From the IMG/VR virus record IMGVR_UViG_3300048838_000291, positions 1-42,521 of that record: DNA of 42,521 bases; one strand, given 5' to 3'. The position numbers and the translations under genes are program-made. Position 1 is the stretch's first letter. The number at the start of each line of letters is the position of its first letter. Positions 8,029 to 41,936 of the stretch are shown in pieces. The notes under the pieces were generated by a model. The model saw nothing but the letters and a program-made list of their open reading frames with translations. It searched no databases and was not told the origin of the DNA. This DNA comes from a virus.

Positions 8029-8313
8029 TCACCAGGCACCGCCGATGAGCCATGCGACCAGGGCCTGCGGCCACTCGGTCACGGCGGCCAGGAGGAACAG
8101 GCCGATCGTGAAACACGCGCCGGCGGCCTCGATCGCAGGTGATGGAACTGCCGCGGCATCAGGCGGGGCAGTTCCGGGGTTTCTCGCGCCCGGCGCTATG
8201 CCTTGGGTGTGTTCACCAGGGCGGGCCCGCTGCACCTGGCTTGCAGCAGTCCGAACATCGGGCAGAGAGAACGCGTCGAGCCGCTGGCGCGGCTGGTGAT
8301 CGTGGTACGGCAT
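8029..8313 (-). CDS. Possible small membrane protein (94 aa)
   Basis: The frame opens with an ATG at 8313 preceded by AAGG at suitable spacing. The first 55 residues are Arg/Pro/Ala-rich and of low credibility, but the last 35 (ACFTIGLFLLAAVTEWPQAL, then VAWLIGGAW) form one or two hydrophobic helices. A shorter product from a later start is possible. Its position after the tail fibre gene is where a holin could lie, but nothing shows this directly. Confidence 0.38.
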   Translation of the reverse strand: MPYHDHQPRQRLDAFSLPDVRTAASQVQRARPGEHTQGIAPGARNPGTAPPDAAAVPSPAIEAAGACFTIGLFLLAAVTEWPQALVAWLIGGAW

Positions 8314-10911: not shown

Positions 10912-10914
10912 GGA

Positions 10915-11367: not shown

Positions 11368-11371
11368 CGGA

Positions 11372-12072: not shown

Positions 12073-12076
12073 TGGT

Positions 12077-12502: not shown

Positions 12503-12951
12503 GGGTGCAGCGCGTCGACTGCGTTCGCCAGTTCTTGGACGTTGCTAGGCCGCGAGGAAGTAAGGGCCCCGGTCCAGCTTGAGCTATCGAGCGTGACGTC
12601 TTCGCCGACGTGCGCGTGCCCGGCGTCGGCCTTCAGGCTCAACAGGAACAGGACGCTTCCGATCAGAGAATCGATCGCTGCATCGACTTCGGTCGCTCGC
12701 GTCAGCTGGTTTGTGCCGGGCGCCGCAGCGACGGAGCTCGTCGGCGCGGCCGTCGTGAACGCACCGGCGGCCGACAGCACGTATTGCGCGGTGCGCGCCA
12801 TGCGCAGCACGTCGGCGGCGTTGACGCGGATTGCGAGCTCACCCTTGCCGGTCGTGATGACGAGCGTTCCGCCGTCGATGCGGCGCACGCTGCCGGCGAT
12901 CAGGCATTGGTCGCCCTCGCTGATCGTCTGCCCGCTGTAGTCGACGGCCAT
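12499..12951 (-). CDS. Probable virion structural protein (150 aa)
   Basis: The 150-residue product begins MAVDYSGQTISEGDQCLIAG, has a beta-rich first half (GGTLVITTGKGELAIRV) and an Ala/Ser/Thr-rich second half with SLKADAGHAHVGEDVTL, which resembles the collar or repeat tracts of tail fibres. It lies between two structural genes of the tail-tip region. No family was recognised. Confidence 0.62.
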   Translation of the reverse strand: MAVDYSGQTISEGDQCLIAGSVRRIDGGTLVITTGKGELAIRVNAADVLRMARTAQYVLSAAGAFTTAAPTSSVAAAPGTNQLTRATEVDAAIDSLIGSVLFLLSLKADAGHAHVGEDVTLDSSSWTGALTSSRPSNVQELANAVDALHP

Positions 12952-12961
12952 CGCGCGCCCC

Positions 12962-13591
12962 TCACTCGATGTCGATGTGAGCCCGGAACCGTGTCAGCGT
13001 CGCGGTCGGACTGCCGACGTAGGTCGCCACTAGCTCGAGCAGATCGAGCTCGGCGACGTTGGCGTTCTGGTTCGGCACGTAGACCAGTGCCTTGTTCGCC
13101 GTGAACTCGACGCCGCCGCCGACGCCGCCCAGCGCCGTGAAGGTGCCGACGGCGCCGGAGAACAGGTCGACGGGCGAACCCGGCGTCGCGTTCGGGTAGT
13201 TCTTCAGGGCGAAGCGGACCTCGTTCCCGCTGCTCGAGGTCGAACCGGCCGCACTCACCAGCACGAGCCGCTTCACGGTGCCGGCGCGCGGCATGGTGCC
13301 GATCCATTCCGTCTTCGTTGCTGACAGCGTGCCGGCCCACCCTTCCGCCGTCACCTGCTGCGCCAGGTCCGCCGTCAGCCTGGCGACCTTGAGCCAGCCG
13401 CTGTTGGCGCCGTTGCGGACCTTCAGCCAGCCCGTCGACGTGTCCGCCCACGTCATGTACGCGACCAGCGACGGCGGTTCCGTCGCGCCGCTGTGATGCG
13501 TGCGCAGCGCCTCGAGCGACGCCGGGATCTTCGTCTTGACCGCGACGCCCAGCACGTCGCTACCGCTCGGCACTTGCCACGTTTGGACCAT
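12962..13591 (-). CDS. Probable tail-associated structural protein (209 aa)
   Basis: The 209-residue product contains two near copies of a short WLKV unit (STGWLKVRNGANSGWLKVAR), then a jelly-roll-like beta-rich C-terminus (RLVLVSAAGSTSSSGNEVRF, DLLELVATYVGSPTATLTRF). The content fits a minor fibre or baseplate-periphery protein. It is encoded directly after the J-like tail tip gene and 35 bp from it. Assignment is from context and composition. Confidence 0.6.
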   Translation of the reverse strand: MVQTWQVPSGSDVLGVAVKTKIPASLEALRTHHSGATEPPSLVAYMTWADTSTGWLKVRNGANSGWLKVARLTADLAQQVTAEGWAGTLSATKTEWIGTMPRAGTVKRLVLVSAAGSTSSSGNEVRFALKNYPNATPGSPVDLFSGAVGTFTALGGVGGGVEFTANKALVYVPNQNANVAELDLLELVATYVGSPTATLTRFRAHIDIE

Positions 13592-13626
13592 CGGGGGGAG
13601 CTTCCTTCAGGGAGTCGGGAACCGGT

Positions 13627-16600: not shown

Positions 16601-17175
16601 GCGGAGTTCAGGTTGTCGTAGCTGCCGAACGGCATCCCGGCGACCGAATGAAACGGTCCTTCGCCGAGCGCCAGCAGCACGTGCAGCTGCTGCGTCGTCA
16701 CGCTCAAACTGATAGACTGCCCTCCAAGTCCGTGCCGCCCGTACACCCACGGGATCGGCAGACCTGGCCCGTAGCTCGTGCGGATTCCGTCCCACGTGTA
16801 CGTCGGGGAGTTTGCTTCGCCTCGTTCCTGCGGTTGCCCCGGTGGCTTCGGTCGCGGGATCAGAAGCGACACGATGTAGTTCACCGCGAACGACACCACC
16901 GCCGACACGACTGCGTAGATCAGCAGCGCCAGAAGGTCGATACCGGCCGTGGTCGCCGGCGCCAGGATCAGCGTCTGGCCGTCCTGCAGCGCATCGTCGA
17001 GCCGTTCGTCGGGCAGCTGCTCGCCGTCGACGCCGACGTGAATCGGGACACCCTTCGGCAAGTGCCGTTCGAGCTCGAGCGCGATCGCGCGCGGCGAGAC
17101 GCCGGCGCGCGGGTCGATCTGAAACCGCTCGAGGTTCTCGCCGAGCATGCCGGCACGGATCACGACTTCAATCAT
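13627..17175 (-). CDS. Host specificity / central tail tip protein (lambda J-like)
   Basis: The 1182-residue product begins with a small domain (about 1-75) like the lambda I / J N-terminus and a hydrophobic stretch near residues 77-107 (LLALLIYAVVSAVVSFAVNY). It continues with the J-type core (TYTWDGIRTSYGPGLPIPWVYG, near 125-150; PAWCLADFLTQRWGLG, near 460). Fibronectin-III-like units follow near residue 800-880, then a C-terminal beta-rich part. A ribosome-binding site (AAGAGG) precedes the ATG. In lambda-like phages this protein closes the tail tube, contacts the receptor and starts DNA ejection. Order with the K- and L-like genes supports the call. Confidence 0.87.
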   Translation of the reverse strand: MIEVVIRAGMLGENLERFQIDPRAGVSPRAIALELERHLPKGVPIHVGVDGEQLPDERLDDALQDGQTLILAPATTAGIDLLALLIYAVVSAVVSFAVNYIVSLLIPRPKPPGQPQERGEANSPTYTWDGIRTSYGPGLPIPWVYGRHGLGGQSISLSVTTQQLHVLLALGEGPFHSVAGMPFGSYDNLNSAFVSPLPTGVFVNGVRLPFAGPFNDSTRAYIRPGTLDQQELPAPFVGASITAAPNDQLTVQGDTSVTTFGTTEGIAQVQVTLSWPGGLYMLDPTGNLQQTTVAFDISWRPSSVAGQAWSSLGTFTQNGATQLPVGVTQSYALPAGTSGPIDVRVVRNTFVASVGTVDTTVVHSIVVQGRHQFAYSGLALFGLSLEATSIASGGFPNIVVVCKGSRVRVWDATHGFSEPCWDVPAAPFDFMQHPPGRNPAWCLADFLTQRWGLGSFITDERIDWPAFRRWAAFCDSDPNPADPWGEPSFCVDLVGDVAKPAWEWVLAICAAGRATPIWRNGKLSVAYQYRDAHGDAGITVPAKAVSQLFTSANVEDVQVNWLPKHARATVFHFQFLNEDRDYANDVLPVEDDESTLNNPATLHKDAWIVDAIQAFGVTRPAQLWREGKFRHRVQSKIRREIAFTTGPWALAAEVGDVFAFQHDLLRPFADDVPMAGVMLLDSEATNVVAIDHALAGTGLQIVFRLPDGEPMTRGVASFLNVEVGGRPGCLVTVDGDPVDLVAGTECVVGLVDKLTEHYQIVSLTLQRDMRRQVRAVQWVPEVHDVLTQSEWEGLQSTPAVALRSLIPDPVRNVKTISGPAGTTTIGWESPDSSIATQPVRVYARSDAGEFELLGQTDDTRIDTDAVRPGRPYEVAIVQRGIDGQWGAVSDGTAATIFAEEFSRIALPEVTGARAVNLGGDLLIAWDDIEQRDLEYYELRAGSHWPAARTLYRGRAPRVRLTAPPDLPLQVAPRSRSGLYGPRVTLPAPAWSPPGTIEVESHDDTATTPSGTHDGTEWNAGEGVLELEADEVAGTYTAEALDLGYQAPAFWRVVCDALEADALTVDEAVFEVGSGEATWRTVDTRPASPYAPGHDWQLLVDEAIWTVEDSPATLLVGGHIGEPGTHTRALVESRFEVDSVWSDWKPHEDRVVVAQKMQARVTLNREAVSWGVQVSELRYSAHL

Positions 17176-20034: not shown

Positions 20035-22215
20035 CTACCCGGTCGCCCGCTGCAGGACCTGGCGCATGCCGTGGCGTGTCTCGACCTGGTTCGTCCAGAT
20101 CGTTCGCAGCGTCGCCTGCTCTTCGATCAGGACTCGCTTCACGTCGCGGCCGTTCATCGCGTTGATGTTGAACGTGAGGTTGGTCCCGCTGGTGCCGTTG
20201 AGCGTGACCGGAATCGAGCGGTTGTCGGGCAGCGGCACGAACGCCTCGCGCTGCCGGCCCTCGCCGAACACGGCCATCGTCGGCCGGTCGGCGATGCCGC
20301 CGCGCGCGAACGCGCGAACCGGGTACGTGTTCTCGATCGGGCCTGGCGAGATACCACCGGTGGCGTAGCCGAGCACCGCCTGCACGGCCTGCAGGGCGAT
20401 CAGCCGCGCGATGATTCTCGCGATGTCGCCCAGGATCGAGCGCGCCAGGTCCTTGAACGCGTCCTTCCAGGACTTCGTGCCTTCGATCGCGGAGCCGATC
20501 GCCTCGACCGTGCCGTCGAGTGCGTTCGTGACCAGGCTCCGGCCAGCCTCGAGCCCGGCCTGTTCGAAGTCGGTCCACTCCTGGACGCCGCGCCGGATGC
20601 CGGCCGAGAACCCGCCGAAGAAATCGCCGCCGCCGACCAGCCGCTGCTGCTTCTCGAGCGCACGCGTCACGGCCTCGGTGCCGGCGCGAAACTCTTCTTG
20701 CGAGATCGTGCCCTTCTCGTATGCGTCCTTGAGCTCGAGCTTCTGCGATTCGGCGTCGAGCTCGGCGACGGCCAGGCGCAGCGACTCGACGCCTGGTGAC
20801 AGCTGCGCCAGCCGCTGGTAGACGCCCAGCTTCTCGCGCGCGCGAGCCAACGACAGTTCTTCCGTCGTGCCGGCGTCGGCCGTCGGCGCCGACGTCGGCG
20901 GCCGGAACACCGACGACGGCGCCGCGGCGTTCGCCCGCTCCTGGATTCCCTTCAGCAGCTGGCCGAGAACGGCGTCGCTGTAGTCCGCGGCGTCCTGCGG
21001 CGTCGGCAGGCCGAACGCGGCCGCGGTCTGCTCCGGCGAGCTCGGGCCGGCCACCGATCGGCGAATGTCGGCGATCGACTGCTCGAGCTCGCGGCTCAGA
21101 GTCTCGCGCGTGCGCTGCATGGCTCCGGCCAGGCCGCGGTCCACGTCCTCGGTCAGCTGCTCGAGCTCGCGCTGCAGGGCGGCCTTCCTGGCCCGCTGCG
21201 CCTCGGGCTTCTCGCCGCCGAGAACGATCTGCTGCAGGCCGAAGTCCTCGATCTGCTTCAGTTCGCGACGGATCTCGCGGAGCCGGTTCGTTTGCTCGTC
21301 GCCGACCAGGTTCACGCCGGGGATCGACTCGATGAGACGCACCAGGCCGATGATCGCGTCGATGGCCAGGTTGACGGCCTGCACGATGCCGTAGCCGATC
21401 GCACGAACCACGTCGGCGATGCCCGCCCGGTTGCTGGCGATCGCCTTCGCCAGCTTCTCGAGAACGGCGATCACCTGCGGTCCGCCTTGCTCGAGGATGG
21501 CGCGCGCCACGCTCTCGGCGGCGAACTGCACCTTCGAAAACGCGTCGTTGAGCCGTTCGGCGATGCCGGCCTGCGCACCGGTGACCGTCGCGCCGGCGTC
21601 GCGCGCGGCGAGCACCGTCTCGCGGAAGGCCTCGCCGCCGCGGCCGACCAGCGGAAGCATCTGCAGGAACTCGCCGGTCGCCAGCCTGGCCAGCGCGAAC
21701 TGGCGTCCGTTGGCGTCTTCGATCTTGCCCAGGCCGTCGGCGATCTTCTCGAACAGTTGCGACGGGCCCAGCGTGCGCAGGTCCTGGATCGTGACGCCCA
21801 GCTGGCCGAACGACCGGACCACCTGCAGGTTTCCGGCGAGTGCCTTCGACTGTTCCTGCGCCATCACGCGCACCAGCTGCGTGAAGTCCTGGATGCCCGA
21901 CAGCGTCGCGGCCGCCTGTAGCTCACTCAGGTTCTCGACGGCGTCGCCCGTCGACGTCGCGAGCTTCGTCAGCGCGTCGGCCTGCGCGCCGACGTCGCGC
22001 AGGAACGTCAGCCCGCGGAACCCGGCATAGGCCGTGACCAGGCCGAGCACCTGGCCGCGGATCGACGTCAGCAGCCGCCCCAGGCCGCGGAGCCCGGCGG
22101 CCGGCAGCTTGCCCAGCTGCAGCAGACCACGCGAAAGCGTCGTGAGCGGCTTCGTCGCGAGGTCCTGCAGGATGATCCGCAGACTCAGCGTACGCTTCGT
22201 GTTCGGGCTAGCCAT
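20035..22215 (-). CDS. Tape measure protein
   Basis: The 726-residue product is long and mostly helical, with hydrophobic patches (LTSIRGQVLGLVTAYAGFRG near residue 50; VNLAIDAIIGLVRLIESIPG near 275), Gln- and Arg-rich helices, and a C-terminal Gly-rich part (ARGGIADRPTMAVFGEG) common to tape measure proteins. Length predicts a tail near 110 nm by the usual 0.15 nm per residue. It follows the G/GT chaperone genes and precedes the tail tip genes, as in lambda. Part of the sequence is likely cut or ejected during infection. Confidence 0.9.
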   Translation of the reverse strand: MASPNTKRTLSLRIILQDLATKPLTTLSRGLLQLGKLPAAGLRGLGRLLTSIRGQVLGLVTAYAGFRGLTFLRDVGAQADALTKLATSTGDAVENLSELQAAATLSGIQDFTQLVRVMAQEQSKALAGNLQVVRSFGQLGVTIQDLRTLGPSQLFEKIADGLGKIEDANGRQFALARLATGEFLQMLPLVGRGGEAFRETVLAARDAGATVTGAQAGIAERLNDAFSKVQFAAESVARAILEQGGPQVIAVLEKLAKAIASNRAGIADVVRAIGYGIVQAVNLAIDAIIGLVRLIESIPGVNLVGDEQTNRLREIRRELKQIEDFGLQQIVLGGEKPEAQRARKAALQRELEQLTEDVDRGLAGAMQRTRETLSRELEQSIADIRRSVAGPSSPEQTAAAFGLPTPQDAADYSDAVLGQLLKGIQERANAAAPSSVFRPPTSAPTADAGTTEELSLARAREKLGVYQRLAQLSPGVESLRLAVAELDAESQKLELKDAYEKGTISQEEFRAGTEAVTRALEKQQRLVGGGDFFGGFSAGIRRGVQEWTDFEQAGLEAGRSLVTNALDGTVEAIGSAIEGTKSWKDAFKDLARSILGDIARIIARLIALQAVQAVLGYATGGISPGPIENTYPVRAFARGGIADRPTMAVFGEGRQREAFVPLPDNRSIPVTLNGTSGTNLTFNINAMNGRDVKRVLIEEQATLRTIWTNQVETRHGMRQVLQRATG

Positions 22216-29466: not shown

Positions 29467-31160
29467 TCGTCTTCGGCTCCTGCAGCGGCCTTGTCGGCGT
29501 CGCTGTCGTCGGTGGCGTCGTCGTCGGTGGGTTCGTCCTTGGTGTCGGCGTCGTCGTCCGGCGGATCGTCGTCGTCGTCGGCGCCGCCGTCCGCCGGCGG
29601 CGATGGCTCGTTCGGCTTGCGCGTCAGCGCGCCACCCTTGAGCCCCATCTCCTGTTCGATCTTCGCTGCTTCGCGCAGGAACGCACCGCGCTCGCGCAGG
29701 ACCTCGAGCCAGTGCAGACCCTGGCGGCTCGCCTCGATCTGCGGCGTCGAAATGTTCGCGGCGATCGCGGCGTCGCTGCCGGCGGCGTCGGCGACCGGGT
29801 CGACGATTCCGTAGGCCGGCGCCACCCATCGGCACGCCAGGAACGGCCGGTCGTTGTCGACCCAGCGCGGCGACGGCGGCACCAACCGGCCACTGTTGAC
29901 CGCGGCACGGATGACGTTCCGGTACCATGGCCGGTTGAACTGGCGGTTCAGCTTCGAACGCGCCTGGTCGAACCCTCGGCGGACCTCGCGAAGCAGCGTG
30001 CGCGAGCTCGAAAGGTTCATGCGGCCGAAGTCCTTGGCGACCATCTCGTACGCCAGGCCCAGCGACGAGCAGAACGCACGAAGGACGCGCGTCACGAACG
30101 TATCGAACTGCGCGCCGGGCCGGTTCGGCGAGAACGCCACCGGCTCTTCGCCTTCGTTCAGGTACTCGATCGTGCCGGCGTTGAGCTCCTGGTAGTACGT
30201 CTGCCCGGTCGCCTGTTCGTTGTCCTGCACCGGAAACACGTCCTGGTCGGTTTCCGAAAGCGGCCGCCGAATGAACATCGCGTAGTTGCTCGCGGCGCGC
30301 GCGGCGATGAGCTCGGAATCGAGGTAGTGGTGCAGGTGACGCGCGTAGAGCAGCGACGCCGCGGTCCACGGCACGCCGCGCGTCTGCCCGGCGCGGCGCC
30401 GGCGGAACACGTGCTGCACCATGCTGTACTCGCCGGACTCCGCGGCGAGCCGCACCGTCTCGCGGGACGCGTTGTAGCCGAACAGGCTGTCGTCCGGGTG
30501 CCCTCGCATGACGTGGTAGGCGACCGCGCGGCCGTGCGCGTCGAGCTCAACGCCGCCGCGCATCGTGTCCGTGTCGACGTGGTTCGGCGACTCCAGCCGG
30601 TCGACGTCGATCAGTTCGCACGCCAGCATGCCGTCGCCGCCCATCACCGCGTGCGACAGCGTCTCGCCGTCCGACACCCAGCAGCGAACGACGAGCTCCT
30701 GCAGGTCGTAGAAGCTTCCGGTGCCGGTCGCGTCGGCCTCTTCGTCGGACCACCGTTCCCACTCGGCCAGGCAGGCCGCGTTCCACTCGTCACATTGCTT
30801 CTCGGTGAGCCCCGTCGACGCCGGCGTGCAGGCCGGTTGCGGCGTGATGCCGGTTCCGACGATGTTCTCGGCGTGAATGTCCGCGGCGCTGCTGGCGTGC
30901 GCGTCGTCGCGGATCAGCGCGCGCGACAGGTCGCGAAGCGTCTTCAGGTCCGGCAGGATGTCGCCGTCGGCCGAGACGCTGCGCTCGGGCCCGTTGACGC
31001 GCGACACCCGCGCCGCCTCGAACGCGAGCAGCGCGGCAGACTTCACGCGGGCCTTCTGCATCCGGTGCACCAGCTGCGGCGCCAGGATGGACACGGTGCG
31101 GTCGACGGCGCGCGCCAGCTTGCCGGCGATGCCGGCGTAGATCGGTTGTCGTTTCATCAC
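29463..31160 (-). CDS. Portal protein (lambda gpB family)
   Basis: The 565-residue product fits the lambda-type portal family: DLKTLRDLSRALIRDDAHAS near residue 70, WCVSDGETL-like core (CWVSDGETLSHAVMGG), QHVFRRRRAGQTRGVPWTAA near 245, and EQATGQTYYQELNAGTIEYL. It forms the twelve-subunit ring at the head vertex through which DNA is packaged. The last 50 residues are extremely acidic (Asp-rich) and probably disordered. The first codons are ATG ATG, and either may be used. It overlaps both neighbours by four bases. Confidence 0.88.
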   Translation of the reverse strand: MMKRQPIYAGIAGKLARAVDRTVSILAPQLVHRMQKARVKSAALLAFEAARVSRVNGPERSVSADGDILPDLKTLRDLSRALIRDDAHASSAADIHAENIVGTGITPQPACTPASTGLTEKQCDEWNAACLAEWERWSDEEADATGTGSFYDLQELVVRCWVSDGETLSHAVMGGDGMLACELIDVDRLESPNHVDTDTMRGGVELDAHGRAVAYHVMRGHPDDSLFGYNASRETVRLAAESGEYSMVQHVFRRRRAGQTRGVPWTAASLLYARHLHHYLDSELIAARAASNYAMFIRRPLSETDQDVFPVQDNEQATGQTYYQELNAGTIEYLNEGEEPVAFSPNRPGAQFDTFVTRVLRAFCSSLGLAYEMVAKDFGRMNLSSSRTLLREVRRGFDQARSKLNRQFNRPWYRNVIRAAVNSGRLVPPSPRWVDNDRPFLACRWVAPAYGIVDPVADAAGSDAAIAANISTPQIEASRQGLHWLEVLRERGAFLREAAKIEQEMGLKGGALTRKPNEPSPPADGGADDDDDPPDDDADTKDEPTDDDATDDSDADKAAAGAEDE

Positions 31161-34100
31161 CTGAAGAGAACCCGCGTGCGGCGGATGCCGCGGTTGCGCT
31201 GCGCCTCGGCAGCGAAGTACTTCCGCGCGCGCAGCATCTCGTCGAAGCTGCGCATCTGCACCTGGCGGCCGTTGACGGTGTAGCCGCTGACGTCGCCGCC
31301 GGACTGGATCGCTCGATCCAGCATGCCGACGATGTCCTCGACCGTGGCCGGGTCGCCGACCGCGGCCGCCGACGCCGATCCCTCGGGGTCGCCGTCCTCG
31401 CCCTCGATCTCCGCGGCCCGGAGCTCGACCGATGTTCCGGCAGTTCGAAGGTCCGCGCCAACGCCCGTGCCGGACTCCGCGTTGGCGCTGCCGCTAGGGT
31501 GTGAAGGGATCGACGTCAGCGCCTCGAGCTTGAGGTCGACGCGAAAACCGAACTGCACGTGCGCGCGTGCGGTGCGATGCACCCCGTTGTCGCGTCTGTG
31601 TGTTCGTGGCCATGTACCAAGGCTGTCGATCTCCATGGCCAGGTCGCTCGGGTCCGCGACCGTGCAGTTGTCGAGCCCAGCGGCGACCGCGGCCTGCGCC
31701 GCGCGCAGCGAGTCGACCGCGGTGTCATCGTCCGGCATGAACGGCGTCTGCGACGTCGTCTGGCAGATCACCTTCGGCAGCGCGGCGACACCCTTCGCGC
31801 GCAGACCGAACACGGCCTCGAACGCCTCGACGACGCGCGTCAGCGCGTCCTGGAACCCGGCGACGTCGGCGAAGTCGTTGTCGCCCAGGTCGACGACCAT
31901 CCACGCCGGGTACGGGATCAGGTTCAGCGGCGCACACTTCACGAACGCCGTCTGGATCAGCCGCTTGGCTTCCGGGAACAGGGGCGGCGGGCCGGCCTCG
32001 ACGGTCAGCGTCGCCGACTCCGCGAACCCGTTGCCGAGAACTTCGATCCAGCTACCGTCGCCGGCCTTCGCCGTGATGCGGTTCACCTGGTGCGGCGGCG
32101 TGTTGTTGCCGTTCACGCCTTGCACGCCGGCGCTGCCGCTGATCGTCGTCGACAGGTTCACCACCCAGTAAGGGGCCGAGAACGTGCCGGCGGCACCGGT
32201 GAGCCGGATTCGCTGCACGGGGTTCATGCCGTCGGCTGGCAGCGACGTTGCCGTCAGCGACGCGATCACGGACTGGCGCACCGACAGATCGGGATCGAAC
32301 ACGCCGGTCGCGTTCGGGATCGTCGCGTTCGTCGCCGCACCGTTCAGCGCCAGCTTGATCAGGCCTACCTTCGCCGACTCGCCCTCGGTGCGGCTGTAGC
32401 GCATCTTGGTTCGCTGCACGATCGGGACCTCGAACCCGCACGTGCCCTTCGGCGAGCCGTGAAACGTGTTGCTGTTCTGCCCACAGTCCCACGGTTCCCA
32501 CTCTTCGGTGTCGCAGTTGAACGCGATCACGTTCGGGTCGATCGTCGAGACGCCGATGCCGAAACTGCCGGACGGCCACAGGTCCGGGTCGCGATCGAGC
32601 CCGATCATCGCGCCGGTGCCGATGTTGCCGACGGCCTGGCTATGGCCGACGATCAGGCCGACGTGCAGTAGCTCGACCGTGTCGCTGGCGATCGTCGTCG
32701 CCTTGAACGCCAGCGCGCGCCACACGCGGTCGCCGAGCTCGGCGTATCCGTCGGGCGGAAGTCGGCACGCGTCCGGCGTCGGGTCTTCGAGCTCCTGGTC
32801 GCCGCTGCGGATCACCACGACGTTCGGATCCAGCGTCGGCAGCGAGTCGATCAGCTGCAGCAGCACGAACGAGAACGGGAACCCGCCGATCTGGATGTCG
32901 GCCAGGTGAGACCGCATGTTGAACGACCAGACGCCGACGCGCAGGTCCGGGTCGCCGATCTCGTCGCGGAATGCCTCGATGACGCGCAGCCACTCGCGCT
33001 GCATGAGCTCGAGCGACGGCCAGGTCGCGGCACCAGGCGCGAACGTGCCGAGCTCAGTCTCCCACAGGAACAACGCCAGGCCTTCCCACTTCTCAGGCTG
33101 GCCCAGGTAGAGCGCGCCGGAAGTCGCGCGGGCTTTGGCCAGGTCCGCCGCAAAGTCGTTGAAGTAGCGCGAGCCGCGTTGCCAGCCCAACGCCGGCCCC
33201 GTCGCCGTCGCGGTGGCGCCGCTGGTGCTGCCGACGATCGAGCCAGCCGCGAGCGTCTGGCCGTTCGGCGCCGTCACGTAGAGCCGCTTCGTCGTCGGGT
33301 TCCACGCGTGCACCGTCGCCGAGTAGGTGCCGGCCGTGACCGTCTCGCCGACCACCCAGGACGTCGGGAACGTGCCGCTGCACGGGATCGCCTGCACCGT
33401 TACGCCGGCGATGAAGTTGTCCGCCAGCGTGCCGTCCAGGTTCCAGTGCTGGAACAGACGAACGCCGAAGTCGTTCACTTCCAGGCCGGCGCCGTGGTAG
33501 TCGTGCGCCGCGTGCAGCAGCCGGTTCTCCGGTCCGATGTGAACCTGGTTCGCGGCATCCGAACACCCGCGCGGGTCGATCTCATAGTGGGTCGCCTGGC
33601 CGTTCAGGCCTGGCATCGCATGGTAGGGCACCCACGCGCCGACCTGCGGGTTGGCGTTCACGGTGGCGATCGTGCCAGTGCCGGCCGTGCTCGTGTTCGT
33701 GATCGTCTGCGAAGCTGCGATGCTGCCAGCCTGGCGCAGCATGCCGAGCACGTAGTTCGCACCGTCCAGGTCGATGAACTGCAGCGTGAACGAGCCACCG
33801 CCGCTGGTCGAGAACCGGTCGCCGAGCTTCCACGGCGCGCCTACGCCGGACACCGACGCGACCGGAACGACGATCGTCTGCGCCAGCTTGGCGTAGGGGT
33901 CCCAGTACGGCGTGTCGGTCAGGTCCTCGGGAACCGCCTTGTTCCATCGCCGGTCCTTGTGCTGCGGGATGTACTGCGCCGCGCCGGGTGCATGCGTCGC
34001 CGAGAAGTTGAACGGGGCGACGTTGCACGTCGTGCCGTTGTCCAGGTTGACGAGCTCGCCCGGCGTCCACTGCCACGGCGTCAGATCGAGGATCTTCAGC

Positions 34101-34303
34101 ACCCAAACGCCGGTTCCAAGGATGCGGCGCACCATGCCGCGCGCACCGGACACGGTGCCGGTGAGAATCGTCCCGATCGGCGGTGGCGTCACCGGCGGGT
34201 TCAGCGTCGCGAAGTGCTGGCCCAGGATCGGGTCGACGTGCTGCAGCACGGTACCGCGCGCGTGTGTGTCGCCGACGATGCCGTAGTAGTGGGTGTCCGT
34301 CAC
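31157..34303 (-). CDS. Tandem SGNH (sialate esterase-like) protein fused to a gpW-like head-joining domain
   Basis: The 1048-residue product lies where lambda W lies, between terminase and portal. Residues about 985-1048 (DIVGMLDRAIQSGG, VNGRQVQMRSFDEMLRARKY) resemble gpW-type connectors. Upstream is an SGNH/SASA esterase-like domain: nucleophile Ser555 in VGHSQAVGN, GDND at 807-810, and DNGVH at 905-909. Residues 1-540 look like a second, degenerate copy: GDTHA at 11-15 (Thr for Ser), LFLWETELG near 412, DACRLPPDGYAELG at 511-524 (Arg for His), plus beta modules near 43-100 and 318-378. Activity (deacetylation of surface glycan) is inference. The start is GTG with no clear ribosome-binding site. 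Confidence 0.72.
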   Translation of the reverse strand: MTDTHYYGIVGDTHARGTVLQHVDPILGQHFATLNPPVTPPPIGTILTGTVSGARGMVRRILGTGVWVLKILDLTPWQWTPGELVNLDNGTTCNVAPFNFSATHAPGAAQYIPQHKDRRWNKAVPEDLTDTPYWDPYAKLAQTIVVPVASVSGVGAPWKLGDRFSTSGGGSFTLQFIDLDGANYVLGMLRQAGSIAASQTITNTSTAGTGTIATVNANPQVGAWVPYHAMPGLNGQATHYEIDPRGCSDAANQVHIGPENRLLHAAHDYHGAGLEVNDFGVRLFQHWNLDGTLADNFIAGVTVQAIPCSGTFPTSWVVGETVTAGTYSATVHAWNPTTKRLYVTAPNGQTLAAGSIVGSTSGATATATGPALGWQRGSRYFNDFAADLAKARATSGALYLGQPEKWEGLALFLWETELGTFAPGAATWPSLELMQREWLRVIEAFRDEIGDPDLRVGVWSFNMRSHLADIQIGGFPFSFVLLQLIDSLPTLDPNVVVIRSGDQELEDPTPDACRLPPDGYAELGDRVWRALAFKATTIASDTVELLHVGLIVGHSQAVGNIGTGAMIGLDRDPDLWPSGSFGIGVSTIDPNVIAFNCDTEEWEPWDCGQNSNTFHGSPKGTCGFEVPIVQRTKMRYSRTEGESAKVGLIKLALNGAATNATIPNATGVFDPDLSVRQSVIASLTATSLPADGMNPVQRIRLTGAAGTFSAPYWVVNLSTTISGSAGVQGVNGNNTPPHQVNRITAKAGDGSWIEVLGNGFAESATLTVEAGPPPLFPEAKRLIQTAFVKCAPLNLIPYPAWMVVDLGDNDFADVAGFQDALTRVVEAFEAVFGLRAKGVAALPKVICQTTSQTPFMPDDDTAVDSLRAAQAAVAAGLDNCTVADPSDLAMEIDSLGTWPRTHRRDNGVHRTARAHVQFGFRVDLKLEALTSIPSHPSGSANAESGTGVGADLRTAGTSVELRAAEIEGEDGDPEGSASAAAVGDPATVEDIVGMLDRAIQSGGDVSGYTVNGRQVQMRSFDEMLRARKYFAAEAQRNRGIRRTRVLFR

Positions 34304-34339: not shown

Positions 34340-34585
34340 TCAGTCCGAATCGCGCTGCGGTTCCGGGATCGCGCCGCGCCAGTTGCTGACCTGCGCTGCG
34401 TCGATCTCCCACGATCGGTACTTCGTTCCGCACGCCTGGCATTGATGCGAGCGGATACGGCCGCGCACGTTGAACGTGAACGGCTTGTGCCGGCCGCATT
34501 GTGGGCAGCGGAACGGCAGGAACGCGACGACCGGCAGGTGCTCGTCGGGAACGTCGTCGGTGTCGGCTTGTCGTCGTGTAACCAT
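34340..34585 (-). CDS. Zinc-ribbon protein (Com-like), 81 aa
   Basis: The 81-residue product has two knuckles, CPQCGRHKP at 27-30 and CQACGT at 49-52, forming a four-cysteine zinc ribbon, with a strand FTFNVRGRIRSHQ between them. Small zinc ribbons of this kind are often encoded beside terminase genes in phages. The start overlaps the terminase end by one base. The TGA stop is followed by C and by an open frame that runs into the esterase-like gene 12 codons later, so stop readthrough would join the two. Confidence 0.75.
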   Translation of the reverse strand: MVTRRQADTDDVPDEHLPVVAFLPFRCPQCGRHKPFTFNVRGRIRSHQCQACGTKYRSWEIDAAQVSNWRGAIPEPQRDSD

Positions 34586-36477
34586 CAGCGCCCGCCCAGG
34601 GTCGGAAAGCGCGGCCCGCGGCGCCGCTGGTTCTGCTGTCGTCGCGGCGGCGGCGCCGTCGCGTCTGGTGCCGGCCGCTTCGCGAACTGCTTTCGCTCGG
34701 TGCGCAGCGTGTCGATGCGGCTCAGTCGTGCGGCCGCGGCCTGGTAGACCTGCAGGTCCCAGGCCTCGTTCCGCTGGTGTCCAGGTTTCTTCACCCAGCG
34801 CATCGCCTCGCGGTTGCCGCTGCGCTGCTTCACCTTGTGCTCGCTGGCCAGCTGCTTCAGCGACGCCGCATCGAGATCAGACGGGAGCCATAGGCGACCG
34901 GCGCGGCTCTCCGGTTCGGCCAGCGCCTGTTGCATGCGCTGCGCGATCAGGTCCTTGAACCAGTCCACGTTCACGGTCCAGACGGTCATCGAGTTTGGTA
35001 GCGGCGCGCCGGTGCGCGGGTGCTTGTCGAGCTTCTTCGTGCCGAACGGCACGGAGCCCTCGCGCTCCACGCCGGCAATCATGCGCGCCACCGGTTGCCA
35101 GTCGCGGCAGAAGTCCAGAACCTCGGGGCGGCGGTAGCGGGAGTCCACAAGGCAGCAGTGAACCCGCAGCTGCTGCGGCCCGTACAGGTTGCGAAACAGG
35201 ATGTCGCCGAGCTCGTTCCAGTCGTTGGTTCGGCCGACGCCGACGAGCCATGATTCTTCGTCCATGCCCCAGGCCTGCAGGTGATACTCCATTCGGTCGA
35301 CCTGGACGTCGACGGTGGCCGTGATCGCCTTCGCGTCGGCCGGAACCTCGCCGAGCTTGTGCGTGCCGACGCACGCCGTGACCGCGGCGTCGGTCGTGTT
35401 CTGCACGCGTTCCTCCCAGACCTCGGCCAGCCAGCTATTCACGAAGTTTTGAAACCGCTTCGGCACGTCGCGCGACGCCATCCACTTCGCGACGATCTGC
35501 CACCACTGCACCCACGGCGAGTACGCCGCCCACAGGTGATAGCTACGGTGCGGGTGCCGTTCTTCTTTGCTCTCGACGTTGCGCCACTGCATCGCGTCGT
35601 GGCCTGTCGGCACCCACCAGCCGCGCGCCAGCATCTCGATCTTGCCGCGGTCGTCGATCTGCTGCTCGCACCGTGCGCACTCGTACCAAGCGTGCCGCGC
35701 GTCTTCCATCTCGCGCGCGGTCGTCACGGTCGCCTTGTCCCACTTCACCCGGTGCCACTCGAACACCTGCAGCCACTGGCAATGCGGACACGGCACCCAG
35801 TAGCGCCGCTGGTCGCCGTCCTCGAATAGCTGGCAGATGTTGCCGTCGCGCGTCGTCGGCGTCGACGCGCACACGATCAGGTGATCGTAGAACGTGCGGG
35901 TTCGTTCCTCGAGCAGATCGAGCGGCGACGCTTCCTTGCCGGACCAGTCGGGGAACTTGTCGACTTCGTCGGCGCAGACCAGGCGCACAGGCACCGACGC
36001 CAGATCCGCCGGCGACTGCGCCGCGCGCAGGTAGACGATGCACCGGCGGAACACCATCTCGCGCGTCTGCAGGTCGTCCTGACGTCCGGTGCGTTGCTCG
36101 CGCAGCGACGCCGACGCCTCGACCATCGGCAGCAGCCGGCGCTGCATGGCCAGCTTCGCGTCGTCGCGCCGCGGCATCACGAGCATGATCGGGCAGGGGT
36201 CGTGCTGGATGTGGTAGCCGATCAGGTTGTTCAGTGTCTCGGTCTTGCTGACCTGCGTTCCCGTCATCAGCGACAGGTGCCGGACCCAGCGGCAGTTCGC
36301 GGTGTCCATCCACTCGCGCGCGTAGGGAACGCGTGACGTCTGCCACGGGCCCGGCTCCGCGTTGAACGACGAATCGAGGAACCGGTGCGCGTCGGCCCAC
36401 TCGCTAACCGTCACCTGCGGTTTCGGCGTCCAGGTCCGCCAGATCGTCGGGTCCGTCATCAGCGACGGGGTCCTCAT
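34585..36477 (-). CDS. Terminase large subunit (lambda gpA family)
   Basis: The 630-residue product has the gpA-type ATPase: MTGTQVSKTET (Walker A, near residue 72), MLVMPRRDDA, and VRLVCADEVDKFP (Walker B, near 165), then STPTTRDGN (motif III). A zinc knuckle follows (CPHC near 232, CARC near 270), typical of the family, and a nuclease domain with TATVDVQVDRMEYH and CLVDSRYRRPEVLDF. The Walker A has Ser where most relatives have Gly. gpA-family enzymes usually cut at cos sites. The first ATG overlaps the small subunit gene; MTDPTIW at 36459 is an alternative start. Confidence 0.93.
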   Translation of the reverse strand: MRTPSLMTDPTIWRTWTPKPQVTVSEWADAHRFLDSSFNAEPGPWQTSRVPYAREWMDTANCRWVRHLSLMTGTQVSKTETLNNLIGYHIQHDPCPIMLVMPRRDDAKLAMQRRLLPMVEASASLREQRTGRQDDLQTREMVFRRCIVYLRAAQSPADLASVPVRLVCADEVDKFPDWSGKEASPLDLLEERTRTFYDHLIVCASTPTTRDGNICQLFEDGDQRRYWVPCPHCQWLQVFEWHRVKWDKATVTTAREMEDARHAWYECARCEQQIDDRGKIEMLARGWWVPTGHDAMQWRNVESKEERHPHRSYHLWAAYSPWVQWWQIVAKWMASRDVPKRFQNFVNSWLAEVWEERVQNTTDAAVTACVGTHKLGEVPADAKAITATVDVQVDRMEYHLQAWGMDEESWLVGVGRTNDWNELGDILFRNLYGPQQLRVHCCLVDSRYRRPEVLDFCRDWQPVARMIAGVEREGSVPFGTKKLDKHPRTGAPLPNSMTVWTVNVDWFKDLIAQRMQQALAEPESRAGRLWLPSDLDAASLKQLASEHKVKQRSGNREAMRWVKKPGHQRNEAWDLQVYQAAAARLSRIDTLRTERKQFAKRPAPDATAPPPRRQQNQRRRGPRFPTLGGR

Positions 36478-37153: not shown

Positions 37154-37419
37154 CGTCTCACGCCTGCGCATCGCCTGCAGTGAGTGCAGTTGTACGGTGC
37201 TGCTCTCTCACCGCATAGGCCGCACAGCTTGACCTCGAACGCGATCAGCTTGCCGATCGCGTTCATTGCCGCTCGCGTGCACGTCGGGCAGTCTTCAGGA
37301 TGAAGGGGCCGGGCATTGTGACAGCCCTCGAACCAGAGTCGCAACGTGCGGTCGAGACGCTCTTCAAGTGTGCCGGACACCCCGCCTAGCCTCACTGCGA
37401 ACGGGCGACGATCAGTCAC
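37150..37419 (-). CDS. Cys-rich small protein, probable zinc finger (89 aa)
   Basis: The start is GTG at 37419, overlapping the upstream TGA. The 89-residue product has CPTC at 44-47, CGLC at 66-69 and a C-terminal CTHCRRC, with a preceding helix (LEERLDRTLRLWFEGC). This many CxxC pairs suggests two zinc sites. It is one of three consecutive coupled Cys-rich genes before the terminase. The function is unknown. Confidence 0.65.
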   Translation of the reverse strand: MTDRRPFAVRLGGVSGTLEERLDRTLRLWFEGCHNARPLHPEDCPTCTRAAMNAIGKLIAFEVKLCGLCGERAAPYNCTHCRRCAGVRR

Positions 37420-37700
37420 TTGGCGTCCTCCAGCGGCGCCACGTCGTCGAGCCACACGTCGCAGCACCGCAGACACAGTCGATAGCCTCCCCAATGTCCT
37501 TCGATGCATGCTGACTGCACGAGCATGCGCTCGCCGCGAGGGACGTCGTGCGCCTGGCCGGGGCCGTTGCCGAGGCACTTCTGCGTCTTCGCGTTGGTGG
37601 CGATCCACTGACGGTGGCAGGAGACTCGCACGTCGCGATCGCCGGCGTTCCAGTCCTCGCGTATGTAGACATTGTCTGGACGCTTTGGCTTGTAGGTCAC
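37416..37700 (-). CDS. Cys-rich small protein (94 aa)
   Basis: The start is GTG at 37700 (GTGA overlap). The 94-residue product reads KPKRPDNVYIREDWNAG, then VSCHRQWIATN and a C-terminal CLRCCDVWLDD. Five cysteines and a few histidines suggest metal binding. It overlaps both neighbours by four bases. No family was recognised. Confidence 0.6.
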   Translation of the reverse strand: MTYKPKRPDNVYIREDWNAGDRDVRVSCHRQWIATNAKTQKCLGNGPGQAHDVPRGERMLVQSACIEGHWGGYRLCLRCCDVWLDDVAPLEDAK

Positions 37701-37870
37701 TGTCGCCCTCGCAGGATCTCGCGAGTGTGCTTGCGGCAGTAGATCGACAGCCCCACAGCGTGCCGAAAGCACCAACGCCGATCGCATCGCAGCGGCGGCG
37801 GCGGCATCAGCACGATGCCCAGCGCGATCGCGCACCAGCACACGACACACGCGATGCCATCGTCGATCAC
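37697..37870 (-). CDS. Small membrane or Cys-rich protein (57 aa)
   Basis: A GTG at 37870 overlaps the TGA of the large secreted-protein gene. The 57-residue product starts with a hydrophobic Cys-containing helix (IACVVCWCAIALGIVLM) and continues with a basic part holding more cysteines (CDRRWCFRHAVGLSIYCRKH). It may be a membrane protein with a metal-binding tail. Being short, it is supported mainly by coupling. Confidence 0.5.
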   Translation of the reverse strand: MIDDGIACVVCWCAIALGIVLMPPPPLRCDRRWCFRHAVGLSIYCRKHTREILRGRQ

Positions 37871-40800
37871 TGGTGCGCGTCCCACATTGCCCCTTGCCAC
37901 GTCGACCAGGATCGGTGCCACGCGTCCGAGAACGGCGCCGCCATGTAGCGGTCCATGTAGTCGAAGAACGGCTGGTGCCCCCACGCGTCCACGAGCCCCA
38001 TCGTGCGCATCGTCAGCGTGACACCAGGCCACGCGTTCGCCGAGCAGCATCGGCGGTAGTTGTTGGCCAGCCAGTCGCGTGAGTCCGCGGCGATGTCGTG
38101 TTGCGAACCGTTCGCATGAAAGTTGCCCCACTCGGGCAGGCCCACGTCGGCAGCGGTGTAGCCACCGAACCCCCAGTTGAAGACGCCTGGCGACGTCTCG
38201 GCGACGTAGAACGTTTGCCCGTCCTCGGACCACCACACCGGCACGTTGAGCGGATGATCAGGGCCGAAGAACTGCACGGGCTTGGCGATGCCCAGCATGC
38301 GCGGCTCGTCGAGCATGCGACCAGCGAACAGGATCGGGAACTTGCGTCCGTTGCAGTGCCCGTTGACGCCCCAGGGTTGCCCTACTTCGTTGCAGCCCCA
38401 CCAGTCGATGCCCACCTGCAGGAAGCGAATCAAAAGCGGCCTTTTCGCGGCGTCGGTGTAGTCGCAGTTGAGCAGCAGCCCCGCATCGCCCGTAAGCGTC
38501 GTGAAGTCGCGGTAGTAGCTCGGCATGTTGTCTGCGGGATGCATCCGCCCGCTGGTCCAGTGCGGACAATGGTCGAGCCAGACACGTTCGAACGCCGCGG
38601 CCGTGGCCGTCATCGACGGTGCGCCAGGTGCTGGCGCCAGGTGCGCTAGCCTGGCCGTGTCGACCTGGCTCAGTCGAAACAGGTCCTTCGGCCCGGTGTA
38701 GGGCGGCCGGAACGCGTCCGCCGGCGGCACCGCATCGAGCACGGTCAGCACGGCCGCCGTCTTGATCTCGCTCGGTGAGCCGGACGGATGCGGCCCCACC
38801 TGCGAAATGGTGGACACCAGCGAAGAACGACCGGTGATCTCGAGCGGCAAAGCGGCGGCGACATTCAGGGCCGGCACGTAGACGCGTTGGTCGGCGCTGT
38901 ACTGGCCGTACAGGGCGGAGTCGTAGCCGTGCGCACCGGTCATCGGCGGGTTCAGCATCGAGCCGTTGACGATGCGGCCGCCGCCGATCGTCGCCGTCGG
39001 TGGCTCGATGCTGGTCACGGTGACGGGGCCGACCACCCACCAGTCGCCGTTGACGAACTGGCCCGCCGGCGCCGGCGCGGCGAAGGTCCAGGAGATGCCC
39101 CACTGGCTCACGCTCAACACGCGCGGCGTCGTGTCTGGCGGCGGCGGCGGCGGCGGGATCGGACCAGGCGGCACCCAGGAGCGGCGACCGTTGCCAAGGT
39201 CGCCCATGATCTGCTGCCAGATCGCCCGGGCCTTCGTGTGGCCAGGCTGTTCGCGCAGGACGACGAAGACGGCCGGCACGTCCCAAGTCGTTTCGAACCA
39301 CGGATCAGGCCAGGCGCGGCCGTCGTACGCCGACGGCGGCGGGGGCGGAAACTCGATGTTGCCGACGCCATGGTAGCGCCCTTGCTGAAGGATCCAGTTG
39401 TGGTCGATGCACGCCAGCGCAGCGCGCAAGGCCAGCGAGCGCGCCGCCTCGATGCCGAACACGTCGCCGGCGAGCCACAGGCCGTACGCGCCGATCGACT
39501 GCTGCCAGGCCATCCAGCGAAGGCCAGGTCCGAGCCGAACGTCATCGCGCACGTCCCACACGTCGAACGGCTTCGTACCCAGCTGCGGCACGTAGACCAT
39601 CGACACCCGCTCGAGGTAGCGCGCGCGCACGCGTTCGGCCAGCGCGCGGTCCTCGAGCTCGCGCCACAGCTGCACAGCGACGATCCCGGCCCACCCGACG
39701 CTGCGTGCCGCATCGGCGCCGCTGGTGCTGTAGCCAGGCCGCACCGTCTCACCGAACAGGAACGCGCGCGCGTGCTGCTGTAGCTCCCACTGCAGCGCCG
39801 GCGACTCGACCAGGCGAGCACCGGCGGCCAGGGTGCCGATCAGCCAGTGCTCGCGGTCCTGCGCGGTCCATCCGTAGTCGGGATCGGGCAGCGGGCCAGG
39901 CTTGCCCAGCTGGTCCGGCGAAACCCCGGTGTGCCAGTGCGGCCGGCCAGACCAGAACACGCAATGCGGGTGCTCGGCCGGATCGGCCTGGCGCCCGCTC
40001 GCTTCCAGGTGATGCGACGGCCGCGACAGCCACTCAAGCGCCGAAAGGTAGGCGACCAGTTCGGCCCCTTCGCCGCCGGCATGGAACGACTCGCCGCGCA
40101 CGAACACCTGGTCCTCCTGCGCCCCCGTGTCGCCGCTGCTGGCGTTGGCGCCGACCACCCCGTTCTCCCATGTGTGCAGGCGCCGCAGCGCCTCGGGGAA
40201 CAGGTTCCGCGTCCAGGCGATCGGGTCGAATCCAGGCGGATCGGACGGCGTGCCGTGCGGCAGCAGCTGCGCGATCCCGTGCCCGCACGTGGTGAGCCCG
40301 ACGGCGGCCGCCAGGCGGACCCATGCCTGCGTTTCGTCGGCGGAGCCGAAGATGTGGCGCGGCCACCCGATCGCGAACGGTACGCCTCGAGCCTGGCCGT
40401 CGACGAAGCGGGTTCCGCCAGGCACCAGCGGCGCGCCCCATCCGGCGCCAGGCACGCCGACCATGCCGTCGCCGAACGTCAGCGCCAGGCCGCCAGGCGG
40501 CGCCGTCGCGGCCATGTCCGGGATCGATCCGTTGCTGCAGGTGATCACGGCCTCGCCGACGACCGTCGTCGGCTCGTCGGGATACCACCTGGCCCACACG
40601 TCGGCGTGCAGCATCGGCGACACCCGCCCCTGCAGCCGCACCGTCAGCGCGGCGCCGTCGGCGGCGAGCTCGACCAGCTGCAGCGGTACGCCGCCCACGG
40701 CCAGCCAGCCGCCGAAGTAGTCGAGCGGTGGCAGCGTGACCGGAGGCGGCGCGGCCGCGCTCGACGCGGCGAGGTCGATCGCGCGGCGTTCGCCGGCCGC

Positions 40801-41019
40801 GAGCTCGAGGTGCAGGTCGACGGCCCACGTGTCGAGCCCCGTTCGCCGGCCGAGAACGAACCGCGTCGTGCCGATCGTGCCGGCGGCGTGCGGCGGCCTC
40901 GTGTCGACCTTGTACCGCTTCCACCCGACGAACGGGGCGGCGCTGTTGTTGGCGACGTGCACCACCTGCGCGAACGCGGTGGCAGCGAACAGGAACACGG
41001 CGAACAGGGTTCGGATCAT
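37867..41019 (-). CDS. Large secreted two-module protein of unknown function (1050 aa)
   Basis: The product begins with a clear signal peptide (MIRTLFAVFLFAATAFAQ), so it is exported from the infected cell. Module A (about 20-615) starts beta-rich (FVLGRRTGLDTWAVDLHLEL) and continues as a large helical part with many Trp and His (HWLIGTLAAGARLVESPALQ; WMAWQQSIGAYGLWLAGDVF), like an alpha/alpha toroid of polysaccharide-active enzymes. A linker of Pro residues (617-630) leads to module B (630-1050), rich in Trp, Gly and Cys (WWVVGPVTVTSIEPP; NGSMLNPPMTG). I know no family for either. The ATG has AAGGAAGGGAAG upstream and overlaps the previous stop. Confidence 0.75.
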   Translation of the reverse strand: MIRTLFAVFLFAATAFAQVVHVANNSAAPFVGWKRYKVDTRPPHAAGTIGTTRFVLGRRTGLDTWAVDLHLELAAGERRAIDLAASSAAAPPPVTLPPLDYFGGWLAVGGVPLQLVELAADGAALTVRLQGRVSPMLHADVWARWYPDEPTTVVGEAVITCSNGSIPDMAATAPPGGLALTFGDGMVGVPGAGWGAPLVPGGTRFVDGQARGVPFAIGWPRHIFGSADETQAWVRLAAAVGLTTCGHGIAQLLPHGTPSDPPGFDPIAWTRNLFPEALRRLHTWENGVVGANASSGDTGAQEDQVFVRGESFHAGGEGAELVAYLSALEWLSRPSHHLEASGRQADPAEHPHCVFWSGRPHWHTGVSPDQLGKPGPLPDPDYGWTAQDREHWLIGTLAAGARLVESPALQWELQQHARAFLFGETVRPGYSTSGADAARSVGWAGIVAVQLWRELEDRALAERVRARYLERVSMVYVPQLGTKPFDVWDVRDDVRLGPGLRWMAWQQSIGAYGLWLAGDVFGIEAARSLALRAALACIDHNWILQQGRYHGVGNIEFPPPPPSAYDGRAWPDPWFETTWDVPAVFVVLREQPGHTKARAIWQQIMGDLGNGRRSWVPPGPIPPPPPPPDTTPRVLSVSQWGISWTFAAPAPAGQFVNGDWWVVGPVTVTSIEPPTATIGGGRIVNGSMLNPPMTGAHGYDSALYGQYSADQRVYVPALNVAAALPLEITGRSSLVSTISQVGPHPSGSPSEIKTAAVLTVLDAVPPADAFRPPYTGPKDLFRLSQVDTARLAHLAPAPGAPSMTATAAAFERVWLDHCPHWTSGRMHPADNMPSYYRDFTTLTGDAGLLLNCDYTDAAKRPLLIRFLQVGIDWWGCNEVGQPWGVNGHCNGRKFPILFAGRMLDEPRMLGIAKPVQFFGPDHPLNVPVWWSEDGQTFYVAETSPGVFNWGFGGYTAADVGLPEWGNFHANGSQHDIAADSRDWLANNYRRCCSANAWPGVTLTMRTMGLVDAWGHQPFFDYMDRYMAAPFSDAWHRSWSTWQGAMWDAHQ

Positions 41020-41936
41020 TGGAGCGGCTTCCCTTCCTTGAGCTTCGTTTCGAGCAGAGCGCGAACGCGCAGAAGTGTAGCCTCGTCCATGTCAGACCAG
41101 GCACCCGCAACGATGCCGGACGCCTCGAGCAGCCGGGCGATCTGGTCCGGCTTGGCCTCGAGCACCCCCTGCAGCTTTCGGCACTCGTCGATCAGTGTCG
41201 CTCGCCTGGCAGCCTCGTGTTTGTCGGTGCGCTTGTTCGTTCGGCTCTGCGGTGCCGGCTCGTCGTCGTCTTGCTCGACGTCTTCCTCGACCACGAACGC
41301 GTCGCTGGCGGCCGTGGCGATCAGCGTCGCCGCCGTGTGCGCACGCTTCGCCGCCATCTTGAGCACCGTGTTGAACTGGTCGGCGATGTCGGGGTTCTCG
41401 GTGAGCCCGATCGGCTGGCTCGTGATGCGTTCGTCGTTGCGCTTGAACGTCGCGCCGCAGCCGCCCTTTTTGGCCCAGCAGTAGAACCCGTCCTCGTGCT
41501 TCGACTTGTTCACCTGCGCGGCGCCGCAGATCGGGCACTTCGGCTTGCCGTTGCGGTAGCGGTACTTCGCTTCCATCGTCGAGCACGAGCCTTGAGCCTG
41601 CGCGACGACGGCGCCCGAAGGAATGTGCGTCAGCGTGCACGTCGCCCGTTCCTCGCGATGGCCACCCTGCAGTTCCCGCGTCGTGAACGTGAACGTGGCA
41701 GCGAGCCGAAAAACCATGCACAGCTTTTCGGCGCCAGGCTTCAGCAGCACCGGCGGCCGCGGCTTCTCGCCCTCGCGCGGTTCGGTTCCAGGGATGTGCC
41801 CGTAGTGGTGCCCCGGCACCATCACTTGCTTGATCACGTCCTGGATCAGCTTCTGTTGCGCGACGACGTCGCCGACGGCGAGCGTTGCCAGTTGGTTATG
41901 GGTCTGGATCGTGGTCGTGGTCTGCAGTTCTTGCAT
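41016..41936 (-). CDS. Recombination/ssDNA-associated conserved phage protein with zinc ribbon
   Basis: The 306-residue product has the pattern of a widespread phage family: VMVPGHHYGHIPGT, VLLKPGAEKLCMVFRLA, then FNTVLKMAAKRAHTAATLIA and TAASDAFVVEE. Relatives are usually found with recombination or replication genes, and a role in ssDNA handling is suspected but not proven. Residues about 133-164 insert a four-cysteine zinc ribbon (CPICGAAQ, FYCWAKKGGCGATF). The C-terminal third is charged and helical. Leader GAAGGACAACCACG precedes the ATG. It overlaps the secreted-protein gene by four bases. Confidence 0.68.
   Translation of the reverse strand: MQELQTTTTIQTHNQLATLAVGDVVAQQKLIQDVIKQVMVPGHHYGHIPGTEPREGEKPRPPVLLKPGAEKLCMVFRLAATFTFTTRELQGGHREERATCTLTHIPSGAVVAQAQGSCSTMEAKYRYRNGKPKCPICGAAQVNKSKHEDGFYCWAKKGGCGATFKRNDERITSQPIGLTENPDIADQFNTVLKMAAKRAHTAATLIATAASDAFVVEEDVEQDDDEPAPQSRTNKRTDKHEAARRATLIDECRKLQGVLEAKPDQIARLLEASGIVAGAWSDMDEATLLRVRALLETKLKEGKPLQ

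Follow-up and report, generated by a model that had tools for sequence, protein, structure and literature searches.

A predicted Sec-exported protein of two planctomycete-type modules encoded near the packaging genes of a phage

The window analysed here is the whole 42,521 nucleotides of the IMG/VR virus record IMGVR_UViG_3300048838_000291, a phage with lambda-like packaging genes and siphovirus tail genes. On its minus strand, at 37867-41019, lies a gene for a protein of 1050 residues, which we infer to be, with reasonable probability, a carbohydrate-active enzyme related to host proteins, in which two planctomycete-type modules are fused and which would be Sec-exported from the infected cell. 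An earlier note on this DNA had described a secreted two-module protein at this place, similar to polysaccharide-active enzymes in composition, which could alter the host surface, hinder further adsorption or aid release; this interpretation is partly supported, its roles being candidates. The gene and its product comprise the following features (related loci are cited by their L numbers and a slash marks the cleavage site):

37867-41019, minus strand: complete open reading frame (ORF) of 1050 amino acids (aa) with signal peptide, N-terminal module (N-module), proline linker and C-terminal module (C-module), from the ORF call, codon GC and homologues
41032-41039, minus strand: likely ribosome-binding site AAGGAAGG, 12 nucleotides (nt) 5' of the ATG, read from the sequence
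40969-41019, minus strand: predicted signal peptide, residues 1-17, MIRTLFAVFLFAATAFA/QVV, from its hydrophobic core and an AXA/Q motif shared with homologues that bear a signal peptide
39163-40968, minus strand: N-module, residues 18-619, with a beta-sandwich at ~19-218 and an (alpha/alpha)6 toroid at ~263-619, from AlphaFold2, VIA-align and the family alignment
39124-39168, minus strand: proline-rich linker PPGPIPPPPPPPDTT, residues ~618-632, from the translation
37870-39114, minus strand: C-module, residues 636-1050, with a beta domain and a helical domain, phrog_34846, from the profile match and homologues

The ORF is intact from ATG to stop with no internal stop codons, and the plus strand over the same positions is interrupted by stops and has no open frame. 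At ~69 % GC long ORFs often occur on the antisense strand, one of 997 aa being seen in L003, so that length by itself says little. We accept the ORF as real because of its GC by codon position, its full-length homologues, the tight packing of the genes and the recurring signal peptide. The GC values of the three codon positions (0.69/0.54/0.88) resemble those of the remaining genes of the window. Homologues spanning the whole protein were found in two phage contigs, L002 (52 % identity) and L003 (49 %), which have no other gene in common with the window except for one marginal match in L003 (a contig-edge gene, 35 % across 48 aa, E 5e-5). The start codon and the stop of the preceding phrog_10048 gene overlap (ATGA, 41016-41019), and the downstream gene starts 16 nt past the stop. 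The gene sits ~0.9 kb upstream of the gene for the small terminase subunit (TerS) and far from the tail genes, so that its placing in a non-structural region by the earlier note stands, as do the signal peptide and the two modules joined by a poly-proline linker; the strand is the minus strand.

At the N-terminus a short charged stretch leads into a hydrophobic core, which is followed by an AXA/Q cleavage site, and by its composition, cleavage motif and conservation the protein is predicted to carry a Sec signal peptide. Relatives in L002, L003, L010, L027-L031 and L042-L049 have divergent leaders of their own, which nearly always end with small-X-small/Q, and this site lies directly before the first conserved strand. 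The relatives in L011, L012, L014, L015, L017, L020-L022 and L050-L055 have no hydrophobic leader and start at or near that strand. On the maximum-likelihood tree of the N-module, the presence and absence of the signal peptide needs nine changes, at least six of which are forced by well supported branches, and the labels cluster no more than shuffled ones (mean 10.6 changes). Judging from these sequences, export appears to have been acquired or given up several times within the family, including among close relatives, which amounts to a repeated comparison of secreted and not secreted forms made by evolution within one family. Linking the loss of the signal peptide to a location among tail genes gave no clean rule, as copies without it also lie upstream of the gene for the large terminase subunit (TerL) in L050, L051 and L054/L055.

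The two modules were folded separately. For the N-module, AlphaFold2 with a 34-sequence alignment returned a model with a predicted local distance difference test (pLDDT) score of 94 and a predicted template modelling (pTM) score of 0.94, in which a beta-sandwich is followed by an (alpha/alpha)6 toroid. One combined alignment of N-only and C-only proteins (A4) was discarded, as it aligned C-modules onto the N-module. Structures were compared using VIA-align, where rows within 1 Z count as tied and the comparison covers the folds in the VIA list; the toroid aligned with GH88/GH105 unsaturated uronyl hydrolases (Z ~10.5-11 over 261-278 residues) and the whole N-module with the PL26 exo-rhamnogalacturonan lyase (Z 10.6 over 497 residues, root-mean-square deviation 4.9, 12 % identity). 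The PL26 entries were the only listed structures aligned across residues 1-604. PL26 PcRGLX (PDB 5XQJ, 5XQG, 5XQ3 and 5XQO; PF19501/PF21345/PF21346) shares the N-terminal beta domain and the toroid with the N-module, but it has ~890 residues against ~600, and besides the low identity there is no direct profile-profile match. The GH88/GH105 enzymes (for example PDB 1VD5, 4Q88 and 4CE7) have a similar toroid, but the match is limited to the toroid half of the N-module, with 7-9 % identity. Ten polar residues (Q301, D303, E310, H336, E339, D369, D388, H391, R439 and R471) are conserved in ~90 % of the family or more and are intact in the window copy. We consider it most improbable that the protein is a non-catalytic glycan-binding decoy or exclusion factor masking the host receptor against other phages: export and glycan-related folds would suit such a role, as a toroid or beta-sandwich could bind without cutting, but the charged residues conserved in the toroid suggest catalysis.

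Searches of Pfam, PHROGs, NCBIfam and PDB sequences with the N-module, as a single sequence and as a profile, gave no credible match. The earlier remark that the protein matches no known family therefore holds for the N-module, but not for the C-module, which matches phrog_34846 (E 3.3e-55, residues 636-1036; function unassigned there); Pfam and NCBIfam gave no match to the window protein at all. PF07470 was weakly matched in two of the 34 N-module members (best E 0.0094), the window protein not being one of them, and PF19501, PF21345 and PF21346 had no match in the window protein or any of the 34. Planctomycete genomes hold clear distant paralogues of the N-module (profile comparison probability 100 %, E 3.5e-45). 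One of these, the cellular L064, weakly matches PF19501, which is the N-terminal domain of PL26 (E 0.008, short of the cut-off), and the link of the distant paralogues to the PL26 profile is weak and goes through the N-terminal domain only (probability 65 %). We do not claim that the N-module belongs to PL26; what the model suggests is a toroid working like that of a lyase or hydrolase. Virus-borne polysaccharide enzymes are already known, and new here is an N-module family absent from the searched libraries. The catalogue would gain an uncharacterised (alpha/alpha)6 family together with the planctomycete secreted domain phrog_34846.

Relatives of the N-module were found on more than 30 viral contigs and at five Planctomycetota loci. 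The cellular count comes from a pattern-based scan of 84,980 species genomes, which recovered only these five loci, L029 being phage-like. Within the limits of sampling and search sensitivity, the family therefore appears to be mainly viral. The chromosomal copies in Planctomycetota carry signal peptides and adjoin genes for gamma-glutamyltranspeptidase, AccD-like carboxyl transferase or class I Glx-tRNA synthetase. The phage-like locus L029, on a contig from a Planctomycetota metagenome-assembled genome (MAG), has the same gene order as the window (N-module gene, TerS, TerL, a small ORF, a head-tail-joining ORF of 1050 codons, portal) and its TerL is 50 % identical to that of the window. Because this planctomycete contig keeps the gene order of the window, the host of the window phage is likely a planctomycete, which would offer a handle on the phages of Planctomycetota, for which we found few reports in the literature. 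As a separate observation, L029 and L031 both belong to MAG-26 (G003), where the phage-borne N-module gene beside TerS/TerL is accompanied by a separate exported copy (G003:C344), so that this one planctomycete MAG seems to contain the phage version together with the host version.

Among loci with a recognisable TerL, the N-module gene is mostly within 4 kb of it. Since the survey covered ~10 kb either side of each locus and some of the loci are related to one another, we take this as a tendency and not as a test. The gene lies upstream of TerL in the window, L010, L020, L029, L043, L046, L047, L050, L051, L054/L055 and L056, and downstream in L015, L021, L044, L045 and L052; in L002 it follows a DNA polymerase gene. 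A broader proposal, which we regard as possible and put forward tentatively, is that the N-module represents an undescribed and mainly viral family of planctomycete-phage polysaccharide lyases or hydrolases, which has repeatedly switched between Sec-exported and non-exported, possibly virion-borne, forms and is often encoded beside packaging genes, the window protein being a fusion of it with a planctomycete secreted enzyme.

The C-module has homologues in 20 mycobacteriophage records (34 % identity over 414 residues). In cluster J mycobacteriophages it forms the C-terminal half of a protein, behind an anchor and LamG-like region that is also present in other cluster J phages, in proteins with a minor tail annotation, and the gene is flanked by minor tail genes and lysin A. 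The annotation of this protein is "minor tail protein" in Halley and "hypothetical" or "lysin A" elsewhere. The "lysin A" label of NC_022066 gp43 (L009, 7281-9401) is on the C-module protein, whereas in the sister phage Halley lysin A is a separate neighbouring gene; by this comparison the label is probably a misannotation. Further carriers are several IMG/VR contigs, where the protein sometimes bears a signal peptide, and Microcystis phages, where the annotation is "carbohydrate esterase". Some of these annotations, be it as minor tail protein, as lysin A or as carbohydrate esterase, would come into question. In Planctomycetota chromosomes, four MAGs have three or four C-module hits each, and 16 of 288 sampled genomes have hits. 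The planctomycete proteins often have signal or lipoprotein leaders and form a multi-copy secreted family. The model of the C-module is weaker than that of the N-module (pLDDT 81), and sequence and profile searches of PDB sequences with it gave nothing credible. As both modules consist of a beta domain and helices, we considered whether they are mutual duplicates, for which hhalign gave no support.

The closest relative of the N-terminal half is L027 (64 %) and that of the C-terminal half is L066 (63 %), which lie on different contigs of the same planctomycete MAG (G002) and both encode secreted planctomycete proteins. The window protein is apparently a fusion of two such secreted modules. They are fused in three phages and adjacent in a fourth, the viral contig L053, where the C-module and the N-module are separate neighbouring genes (10025-11758 and 12454-14374) and constitute the unfused counterpart. 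In the tree, the C-terminal half of the window protein nests among cellular copies (93/98), separate from L002 and L003 (100/100); this could mean that the fusion arose repeatedly, or that the two modules went back to cells.

The nearness of both halves to chromosomal secreted proteins of planctomycetes would also suit an auxiliary metabolic gene (AMG) or cargo gene, whose enzyme would let a cell that is infected or lysogenic digest environmental polysaccharide as food. AMGs have been described in a planctomycete phage (PMC10945688), and the GH75 chitosanase AMG of a soil virus is an example of a functional viral gene for polysaccharide degradation (PMC9485262). Like the gene of the window, the chitosanase gene has counterparts in cells, but its product is a single module of another fold family and has proven activity and structure, whereas the window protein is predicted only. 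Against a cargo role, a search for integrases found none in the window, possibly a fragment, and one in only 2 of 16 N-module records; the place near packaging genes, which recurs in many unrelated phages, and the excess of viral over cellular N-module copies fit a viral function better. We therefore hold the cargo explanation to be unlikely, though not far-fetched.

If the protein is instead an exported enzyme acting for the virus, the gene would be co-transcribed with the adjacent phage genes near the packaging genes, and the product would pass through Sec, be cleaved at A17/Q18 and fold outside the cytoplasm, with release before or at lysis. The N-module would most likely cleave or trim a polysaccharide containing uronic acid or rhamnose, and the C-module would serve as a second glycan-acting or glycan-binding domain that binds or cuts this polymer at another feature. 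The target could be the polysaccharide around the host (sheath, holdfast or biofilm matrix), and the benefit could be spread through the host matrix, fewer progeny trapped on debris, or feeding of the infected cell. If true, a phage gene makes the infected cell itself export a polysaccharide enzyme. Phage polysaccharide depolymerases are usually regarded as particle components, and tail-spike depolymerases of capsule or extracellular polysaccharide, for which the proposed target is likewise surface polysaccharide, are mostly virion-bound beta-helical trimers. The window protein differs from them by its signal peptide and its toroid fold.

Several results weigh against an exported polysaccharide enzyme. 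The earlier note had suggested structure prediction with Foldseek, and while the N-module gave a confident model, Foldseek found no match for it in PDB below E 1e-3, and the fold of the C-module has no clear counterpart there (Z at most 3.8). Because of this Foldseek result and the tied Z rows, the similarity of the N-module is a fold resemblance and not functional proof, although the toroid, the whole-module alignment with PL26 and the secreted planctomycete kin together lend the modelled likeness to polysaccharide enzymes some substance. The comparison of the N-module with the PL26 profile (hhalign, A6 against A8) was not significant, PF21345 and PF21346 are absent from the MAG relatives, and PF21346 is absent from the window. 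Moreover, the C-modules of mycobacteriophages look tail-borne, and many N-module relatives have no signal peptide, and the genes of some of them directly follow tail genes or stand within the head genes.

The last two points bear on a virion-associated depolymerase, placed in the tail tip or head and cutting host-surface polysaccharide at entry. Such a protein is suggested by the cluster J C-module fused to a LamG-type protein, whose gene has minor tail genes on one side and lysin A on the other, and by the N-module copies without signal peptide that follow tail genes (L011 and L022) or lie between TerL and portal (L015). A match to a tail protein family, which the earlier note had named as evidence against its own view, was found in so far as Halley gp45 and NC_022066 gp43 have a homologue of the C-module as their C-terminal half. 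These proteins, however, have the N-terminal anchor and LamG, belong to the tail gene cluster and lack both the signal peptide and the N-module, whereas the window protein has a signal peptide, no tail anchor and a gene outside the tail cluster. The signal peptide would also take the protein out of the cytoplasm, the site of virion assembly. A virion study of the cluster J phage Omega (PMC3706429) does not bear on the presence of the C-module in virions, as Omega and LittleE are not among the phages matched here. For the window protein we consider a virion role distinctly unlikely, and the exported enzyme is preferred.

Finally, the protein could act in lysis, degrading the host cell wall from the periplasm like an exported endolysin. 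The signal peptide and the position upstream of the terminase genes would agree with this, as the lambda lysis cassette sits upstream of the terminase genes, and so would the "lysin A" annotation of NC_022066 gp43. However, sister phages do not share that label and their lysin A is a different gene, and library and PDB searches returned no peptidoglycan-hydrolase match. Moreover, a primary role in lysis is unlikely because the window has a separate likely lysis cassette at 11372-12502 (minus strand), with a gene for a holin-like transmembrane protein (12077-12502) followed by two small genes; an endolysin-like protein is to us very improbable. The two small genes (11695-12072 and 11372-11746) overlap, and their exported or lipoprotein-like products look like a spanin pair.

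The packaging and structural genes follow on the minus strand in the order TerS, GpA-type TerL, lambda-type portal, major head protein, tape measure and central tail fibre J. The neighbours of the 1050-residue gene and the landmarks of the map are:

41016-41936, minus strand: upstream overlapping phage gene, 306 aa, phrog_10048, function unassigned in PHROGs, with a central zinc-ribbon-like CxxC...C
37416-37850, minus strand: next downstream gene, 144 aa
36404-36955, minus strand: TerS (phrog_57, E 2.9e-11)
34585-36477, minus strand: TerL of GpA type (PF05876, E 2.4e-66; PF20454)
20035-22215: tape measure gene
13627-17175: J-like gene

Two further observations concern this map. At 31157-34303 (minus strand) there is an ORF of 1048 aa, the last 50 residues of which match head-tail joining/gpW-type proteins (phrog_2545, NF047331). 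It had no match in PDB or the phage collection, and the ~970 extra N-terminal residues resemble, by eye, an SGNH/sialate-esterase-type enzyme. The homologues are equally long in L029 and L050 and have just 69 aa in L054/L055. A tRNA-Met (CAT) at 7822-7897 (minus strand) falls within the call of a 402-aa ORF (6908-8116), so the start of this ORF is probably wrong.

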